NCBI RefSeq assembly: GCF_029846115.1
Contig: NZ_JARVZZ010000001.1
Coordinates: forward strand, 1,922,001 to 1,986,000
DNA from: Serratia marcescens
GTDB taxonomy: Bacteria; Pseudomonadota; Gammaproteobacteria; Enterobacterales; Enterobacteriaceae
Direction of reading: 5' to 3'
Length of the DNA: 64,000 nucleotides
Part shown: piece after piece, positions 32,972 through 34,608 of the stretch
How positions within the stretch are numbered: position 1 is the first letter of the stretch
How the letters are laid out: each line of letters starts with the position of its first letter
Made by a program: the position numbers and the translations under genes
Notes under the pieces: generated by a model
Databases searched by the model: none
What the model was told of the DNA's origin: nothing
Seen by the model: the letters and a program-made list of their open reading frames with translations, nothing else

Positions 32972-33205
32972 ATGGCAATTCAGGCCAATATGCACGAAGC
33001 CAAATCCAATCTGAGCCAGCTGGCGGACAGAGCCGCGGAGGGAGAAACCGTGATTATTGCAAAAGCAGGGAAGCCGTATGTACAGCTGGTTGCCATCCAG
33101 GGCGAAGCGCGCCGCCCTGGCGCCGCCAAGGGCAAGTTCACCGTGCCGGCGGATTTCAACGCGGGGGATGCGGCCATTGCGGCGCTGTTTGAGGGCGATG
33201 AATGA
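32972..33205 (+). CDS. Phd/YefM-family antitoxin of a VapBC-like pair
   Basis: The 77-residue protein starts MAIQANMHEAKSNLSQLADRAAEGE, the Phd/YefM DNA-binding fold, and ends in a short toxin-binding tail (DFNAGDAAIAALFEGDE). It should bind the PIN toxin encoded next and repress the pair through the tandem palindromes upstream. It overlaps the toxin gene by 4 nt (ATGA). Confidence 0.88.
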   Translation: MAIQANMHEAKSNLSQLADRAAEGETVIIAKAGKPYVQLVAIQGEARRPGAAKGKFTVPADFNAGDAAIAALFEGDE

Positions 33206-33588
33206 AGCGCTTGCTGCTGGATACCCACACATTGCTGTGGTGGCTGATTGATGACGCCTGCCTGGGCGCGAACGCCAAAAGGCAGATCGCCGATCCGGGC
33301 AATGCGGTGTACGTTAGCGCGGTCAGCATTTGGGAGATCTCGATCAAGCAGGCGCTGGGTAAACTGGCGCTGCCGGAAGATATCTTTGCGATCATCGAGG
33401 CCGAAGATTTTCTGTCGCTGCCGATGGACGCCTTTCACTGCCAACAGGCCGGGCAGTTGCCGCCCTATCATCAGGATCCTTTCGATCGCATGCTGATCGC
33501 ACAGGCGCAGGCCGAGGGGCTGACGCTGATCTCCGCCGACGCGGTGTTTCCGCAGTACGGCGTGCGGGTGGCGGACGCCCGCCGTTAA
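33202..33588 (+). CDS. PIN-domain toxin (VapC-like)
   Basis: The 128-residue PIN-domain ribonuclease keeps the acidic catalytic set: Asp7 (LLLDTHTLLWW), Glu45 (SIWEISIK), Asp95 (with Asp92, DPFDRMLIAQA) and Asp113. Such toxins cleave RNA and are blocked by the antitoxin encoded just upstream. The last 4 nt overlap the 3' end of the convergent bglG-like gene. Confidence 0.89.
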   Translation: MKRLLLDTHTLLWWLIDDACLGANAKRQIADPGNAVYVSAVSIWEISIKQALGKLALPEDIFAIIEAEDFLSLPMDAFHCQQAGQLPPYHQDPFDRMLIAQAQAEGLTLISADAVFPQYGVRVADARR

Positions 33589-34468: not shown

Positions 34469-34508
34469 AAAACCTGACGCCCGGAAGCGATCCCGGGCGT
34501 CAGGTTTT
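34469..34508 (-). terminator. leader terminator of the bglG-like gene
   Basis: On the minus strand a 16-bp perfect stem (arms 34508-34493 and 34484-34469) with an 8-nt loop is followed by T-rich sequence. Its first arm overlaps the last 6 nt of the RAT (34508-34503), so the two structures exclude one another. Confidence 0.85.
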
Positions 34509-34568
34509 GCCTGTATTTTATGTTTCTGTCCTGCGGCCTGAGCGGCGGAGGGGATACAGTAACAATCC
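34503..34568 (-). promoter_or_regulatory. RAT (ribonucleic antiterminator) with expanded apical loop
   Basis: On the minus strand GGATTGTTACTGTAT (34568-34554) and ATACAGGCAAAACC (34516-34503) are the two halves of a BglG-type RAT. The CTGTAT/ATACAG stem pairs perfectly, but the halves are separated by 37 nt instead of the usual few. Confidence 0.8.
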
Positions 34569-34580
34569 TGTTATGCCTGC

Positions 34581-34608
34581 ATAATAACCCGTGCTCGCCG
34601 CGGCTCAA
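34581..34608 (-). promoter_or_regulatory. promoter of the bglG-like gene
   Basis: On the minus strand TTGAGC (34608-34603) and TATTAT (34586-34581) are 16 bp apart. Transcription would start just before the RAT. Confidence 0.6.

Follow-up and report, generated by a model that had tools for sequence, protein, structure and literature searches.

The window, a stretch of 64,000 nt of Serratia marcescens DNA, carries on its minus strand bglG, a gene for a LicT/BglG-family antiterminator of 282 aa (34433-33585), and a leader that precedes it. This leader begins with a sigma-70-like promoter (TTGAGC and TATTAT separated by 16 nt, 34608-34581, minus strand) with 9/12 consensus matches, where shuffles of the region contain 0.1 such sites on average. 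The two halves of a BglG-type RAT follow on the same strand, GGATTGTTACTGTAT (34568-34554) and ATACAGGCAAAACC (34516-34503), and between them lies an expanded apical loop of 37 nt (34553-34517). Folding places an intrinsic terminator with a T-rich tail at 34508-34469, also on the minus strand. We could thus confirm the succession of promoter, RAT halves and terminator given in the preliminary description, as well as a perfect CTGTAT/ATACAG stem that closes around the 37 nt and leaves the halves pairable. The overlap between the first arm of the terminator and the second RAT half stood as well, AAAACC (34508-34503) being common to both, so that RAT and terminator would be mutually exclusive, while the terminator stem had to be revised from 16 bp to 18 bp with a 4-nt loop. 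Transcription is predicted from the sequence to start near 34574. A TTGAG..TTAT(C/G/T)AT layout was found at the same place in 12 of the 13 named Serratia leaders that we compared; in the remaining one, from S. oryzae (L015), a promoter-like sequence lies further upstream.

The protein has the CAT RNA-binding domain (PF03123, E 1.2e-23) followed by two PRDs (PF00874, matched in two stretches), and its alignment to LicT structure chains is ungapped. Histidines occupy positions 100, 159, 207 and 269, which we take to be the four conserved PRD histidines by LicT numbering. The NCBIfam LicT model gave a score of 396.9 bits against a cut-off of 300, and the NCBIfam BglG model gave 308.2 bits, below its cut-off of 322. 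Of 30 Serratia genomes, 24 have an intact bglG open frame, whose product is 91-100% identical to the window protein in 23 of them and 84% identical in G025. Upstream of bglG lies a gene with an SbcC Walker B domain. The window shares with LicT/BglG/SacY systems the protein domains, the histidines, the RAT consensus, the overlap with the terminator and a site before the regulator gene, but differs from them in that no PTS gene adjoins the regulator. On the plus strand lies a PIN-domain gene (33202-33588) in convergent orientation to bglG, the two sharing the last 4 bases of bglG.

Rfam, applied to the whole window at gathering thresholds, returned no family, and we therefore built a RAT covariance model of our own from 19 short-loop RATs. 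The split RAT scored 32.6 bits with this model, with an E value of 3.4e-8 in the window, where the next match had an E value of 1.7, and it was the best of three RATs in the 5.2-Mb genome (E 2.8e-6). These values argue that the split RAT is not a chance match. Model positions 1-29 were matched, without a single departure from the 23 consensus letters of the halves. Pattern matches lacking the TTACTG part, such as G000:C1:1233253, were taken as chance.

In the window RAT, 43 nt separate CTG from CAG. We searched 394 Enterobacterales genomes for exact-consensus RAT halves at spacings of 1-14 and 15-45 nt, a search that misses variant halves, and obtained 67 sites. The spacing between CTG and CAG is 4-10 nt in 57 of these; another 8 have 15-19 nt, and the remaining 2, which are from Serratia, have 43 nt. 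Spacings of 47-107 nt, with one T required inside, yielded a single match, in G017, among 392 genomes of the family that include some Serratia (variant halves being missed here too). The window leader, with its 37 nt, lacks the short apical loop otherwise expected of a BglG-type RAT. The earlier statement that RAT loops are only a few nt long describes the great majority of the exact-consensus sites and fails for the remaining ten. Because of the 8 sites with 15-19 nt, and of a RAT with a 39-nt tip in Zophobihabitans (L016:3934-3995), we treat the short loop as a usual rather than a defining feature of RATs. Long tips are rare, yet not unknown.

Downstream of each of the RATs with 15-19-nt tips (L193-L200) comes an open frame that looks like a PTS EII or family-3 glycosidase gene, as Pfam bears out for L193 and L198. 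At least part of each of these tips is predicted to pair with itself. The RAT of Zophobihabitans, which we take to belong to the Orbaceae, lies between bglG and a PTS EII gene (Pfam), and its tip folds as a near-continuous helix. A repeated GTTACTGTA in this tip looks like a local duplication. The RATs with extended tips resemble the window RAT in having longer tips, there before PTS or glycosidase frames. They differ from it in that their tips are shorter and predicted to be partly self-paired near the stem, whereas the window loop is predicted to form a small hairpin within a mostly unpaired loop. Among the matches listed in a search of titles and abstract starts of the open-licence literature, there was no report of a MITE in a RAT or of any Serratia RAT.

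Aligning the same leader across Serratia, a check that had been proposed for this locus, gave matches in 24 of 30 genomes and revealed a natural series of loop lengths. We classified the leaders by the number of letters between GGATTGNNACTG and ACAGGC, where 42-43 letters correspond to a loop of 37-38 nt. This class comprises 12 of the 24 leaders, which form the marcescens group; its named loci come from S. marcescens, S. nevei, S. ureilytica and S. bockelmannii. Longer inserts were found in 6 of the 24: 57 letters in G004 and G017 (named loci from S. proteamaculans and S. grimesii), 102 letters in G005, G015 and G016 (S. plymuthica and S. inhibens), and the insert of G025. The other 6 leaders have short loops, with 7 letters in G006, G007, G008 and G023, 15 letters in G003, and 11 nt between CTG and CAG in G002; the named loci of the short class (4-8) come from S. 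liquefaciens, S. silvae, S. oryzae and three other species. The G025 leader (L106) carries a 137-base insert between damaged RAT halves, one base being missing from the first half and one change being present in the second, and the covariance model found no RAT in this leader. A tree of bglG only (32 rows, L087 and L012 left out), in which deep forks are weak, placed the filled S. grimesii leader and the short-looped G023/L009 as sisters with 100/98 support. A tree on concatenated upstream DNA and bglG was discarded because in S. plymuthica, S. inhibens and G003 (L008, L010 and L098) the gene upstream of bglG is not sbcC but an amino-acid-permease-family gene, assigned by Pfam in the L098 copy. 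Between species, inserts of a few to about 100 nt thus occupy one protein-binding hairpin while the protein is nearly constant, a series with which one can directly test what portion of a RAT is read by BglG-type proteins.

ERIC elements were present in all 30 Serratia genomes searched, and a published description (PMC2229807) has ERIC ends carrying TA, with target duplication. The clearest likeness to an ERIC is in the S. proteamaculans leader L006, whose loop starts with TACCCGTCGCCTTTCAAGCCGCAG and contains the end CATAGGGTA. These two ends match a 124-bp Serratia ERIC copy in L011 at 23/24 and 16/18 positions, and the anchored score was reached by 0/5000 shuffles for the left end and by 1/5000 for the right end. 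The filled arrangement CTGTA-TACCC..GGGTA-GAGATAT.. of L006 can be set against CTGTAGATATACAG in L009, a comparison in which the flank differs and the exact empty site is uncertain. The window loop is homologous to the L006 loop, with a score of 26.5 against a shuffle maximum of 14.5 (0/1000). Its similarity to the L007 loop is less clear (5/1000 shuffles), and none was detectable with the plymuthica-group loops L008 and L010 (330/1000 and 121/1000 shuffles). In the alignment to L006, the stretch 34556-34531 (minus strand), which takes in the TAT of the first RAT half, corresponds to the left end of the Serratia ERIC subfamily. Taken alone, this likeness is weak: the window loop was equalled by 130/5000 shuffles, or by 363/5000 if TAT was kept, scores as high as its own were obtained at 339 of the 5020 TA sites of L001-L015, and nhmmer with an ERIC model gave no match to it. 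It is through the homology to L006, whose loop ends are ERIC ends, that the window loop is tied to this family.

The other filled loops add to the picture to differing degrees. The L007 loop has a right end that resembles an ERIC end (8/5000 shuffles) and a left end that does not reach significance (1271/5000). The starts of the L008 and L010 loops match an ERIC end in the opposite orientation (9/5000 and 2/5000 shuffles), and no second ERIC end could be recognised in the plymuthica-group loops. Besides the three orthologous leaders, 31 other places match the L010 loop in part, and 29 of these matches fall within the first 34 bases of the loop (E 8.6e-4 to 0.08). The G025 insert corresponds to positions 6-116 of an ERIC model from which the G025 copy itself had been kept out, scoring 12.6 bits where the best of 200 shuffles scored 3.8, and judged by this match it is a decayed, nearly full-length ERIC. 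A first ERIC model of 25 copies gave weak nhmmer values (L006, E 0.03; L010, E 0.46), and the case for an ERIC is built on the anchored-end tests, the Serratia ERIC subfamily and the G025 copy. Taken together, these comparisons make an ERIC-type MITE, since decayed, the most likely source of the window loop. Compared with the ERIC/IRU/RU-1 MITEs, the Serratia leader copies have similar end sequences beginning at a TA in L006, L008, L010 and G025, and the near-full copy of G025 has their size; the leader copies differ in sitting in the loop of a regulatory RNA hairpin and in being internally deleted or decayed.

Alternatively, the loop may have arisen by slippage, duplication or some other insertion, with a coincidental likeness to ERIC. 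The weak ERIC signal of the marcescens loop by itself speaks for this view, as does the apparent duplication in the L016 tip. We consider this unlikely in view of the ERIC matches of the L006 loop ends, the L010 loop start and the G025 insert, the partial copies of the L010 loop at unlinked places, and the homology of the marcescens loop to that of L006. Two further observations concern ERICs in this genus. The S. oryzae leader (L015) carries a fragment resembling an ERIC (E 0.0021) downstream of its promoter-like sequence and upstream of the RAT, a second ERIC-bearing place in this leader. At other Serratia sites (L214 and L223, also L219 and L221), we noted very short ERIC derivatives of about 45-60 bp, with their ends nearly or directly fused.

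The preliminary description had left open whether the expansion is a neutral insertion or a second input to the switch. Among the 12 marcescens-group leaders, the number of variable columns is 0/29 in the RAT halves (0/15 in the first and 0/14 in the second), 9/38 in the loop, 11/60 upstream, 2/36 in the terminator and 2/74 beyond it. The loop is more variable than the RAT halves (p = 0.004, Fisher test) and comparable to the upstream spacer (p = 0.61), both values being rough since the sequences are related. Because the RAT halves are invariant and the loop is variable, we favor a tolerated insertion over a second input. This is compatible with a review (PMC7430163) according to which LicT contacts two bulges and the minor groove between them; such contacts would leave the loop free. 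The closing of the RAT over the folded loop is predicted to contribute -1.2 kcal/mol in the window, and -1.0 to -5.2 kcal/mol in 10 leaders with short loops.

Folding of the leader RNA, another check that had been proposed, recovered the terminator and failed to recover the RAT: the whole-leader MFE fold consists of the terminator and a decoy hairpin, as would be expected without the protein. The decoy is predicted to form between ACAGAAACA in the loop (34529-34521, minus strand) and TGTTACTGT, which belongs to the first RAT half. For the isolated window RAT RNA, the decoy fold is predicted at -13.4 kcal/mol and the fold with the RAT enforced at -9.5 kcal/mol, and the upper stem of the RAT has a predicted probability of 0.24. 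When the growing transcript was folded at nine lengths, from 50 to 104 nt, the decoy was predicted at each of them. These predictions speak in favor of a functional loop that either engages the first half, through pairing of UGUUACUGU with ACAGAAACA, or binds another factor, such that autoregulation needs an extra signal. The decoy dominates in 7 of the 12 marcescens-group leaders, the window included (RAT stem 0.14-0.25), but the remaining 5 leaders have a RAT-stem probability of 0.76-0.94, and with shuffled loops the same or a lower probability came out in 155 of 1000 cases. On these two grounds the decoy was dropped as a conserved second input, and its pairing is probably incidental. The loop also varies as freely as the upstream spacer, other Serratia have different, longer or no inserts, and G023, with its short RAT, has a bglG that is sister to that of a filled-loop species. 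We therefore regard a second input as very unlikely. Of the two options originally offered, the neutral insertion is the one favored by the comparative evidence, while no positive evidence emerged for the other.

The invariance of the halves also bears on the possibility that the insertion disabled the RAT and left a leader that acts only as an attenuator with constitutive low read-through. In favor of this possibility, the exact-consensus sites found outside Serratia in the 394 genomes have at most 19 nt between CTG and CAG compared with the 43 nt of the window, and in G025 both halves are changed next to the near-full-length ERIC. However, the halves and the CTGTAT/ATACAG stem have stayed invariant in 12 marcescens-group genomes while the loop drifted, the bglG frame is open in 24 genomes, and PTS or glycosidase genes elsewhere are preceded by RATs whose 15-39-nt tips are at least partly self-paired. 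We give loss of function as low a probability as the second input. A tolerated insertion in a working RAT is the reading we retain, and the leader would then harbor a probable MITE remnant in a regulatory RNA hairpin without evident damage.

Calling this leader an orphan was accurate for the immediate surroundings of bglG and incomplete for the genome as a whole, which has a second BglG and two further RATs. One of these RATs precedes a bgl operon whose own BglG shares 39% identity with the window BglG. The other leads an operon located 0.9 Mb from the window bglG (L206, G000:C1:1047500-1054500), which consists of bglF, a 6-phospho-beta-glucosidase gene and an OprB-family porin gene, with no bglG. 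Of the 30 genomes, 24 contain the bglF of this operon (E up to 1e-100), and these are exactly the 24 in which the orphan BglG is intact. A RAT lies just upstream of bglF in all 24; the bglF frame has one internal stop in each of two of them, G002 and G017. In G028 the orphan BglG is broken and this bglF is absent, and the other five genomes have neither; three of those five (G018-G020) do have the second BglG. The probability of this co-occurrence would be 1.7e-6 if the genomes were independent, although they are related and represent few independent losses. The second BglG was not found in 11 of the 24 genomes (G002, G010-G014, G021, G022, G024, G025 and G029), and the window-type BglG is therefore the only candidate seen for the bglF RAT in these. 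Thus, the window BglG probably serves the RAT of the unlinked bglF-bglA-porin operon, which provides a concrete proposal for the trans partner of an apparently orphan antiterminator. The bgl genes of E. coli form a bglGFB operon. The Serratia system has in common with it a bglG-type regulator, bglF, a phospho-beta-glucosidase and a RAT, and differs in that 0.9 Mb separates the regulator gene from the structural genes, with a RAT of its own at each of the two places.

Taking these observations together, we propose that the leader is probably a working autoregulated switch of the LicT/BglG type that has tolerated an ERIC remnant, and that its BglG also acts in trans on the bglF operon. RNA polymerase would start near 34574 and make the split RAT. 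With the PRDs active, a BglG dimer would bind the RAT via the two internal bulges and the helix between them and hold GGAUUGUUACUG and CAGGCAAAACC together, which would keep AAAACC off the terminator and allow bglG to be transcribed; binding and antitermination are what we infer from the domains, the RAT consensus and the overlap with the terminator. Because the apical loop presumably lies outside the protein contacts, an ERIC-type MITE could have inserted there at a TA and later decayed, leaving a 37-nt remnant that would be tolerated and evolve without visible constraint. The same BglG would act in trans on the RAT of the unlinked bglF-bglA-porin operon, which lacks bglG. A bolder and decidedly improbable extension, drawn from the folding predictions, is that RAT loops are landing sites for ERICs in Serratia and that the predicted fold is the decoy (RAT stem about 0.24) or the RAT (about 0.76) depending on a natural A/G difference in the remnant, which would tune the switch over the unlinked bgl operon. 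If this were true, insertions would be tolerated because BglG ignores the loop, and they would seed strain-level variation in autoregulation.

Some RATs in other Serratia genomes stand before genes of other families. Three such loci, L164, L165 and L167, come from G004, G025 and G028. In L164 and L167, a RAT lies upstream of a histidine-phosphatase-family gene, after which an OprD-family porin gene follows at some distance. In L165, the RAT is followed by a 97-aa frame without a Pfam match, and the terminator arm is changed. The same RAT was seen in G011, G012, G024 and G029 (L152, L166, L170 and L176), and in L152 a terminator-like sequence and a Glucosamine_iso-family gene lie downstream of it, the gene being possibly a further target of BglG.
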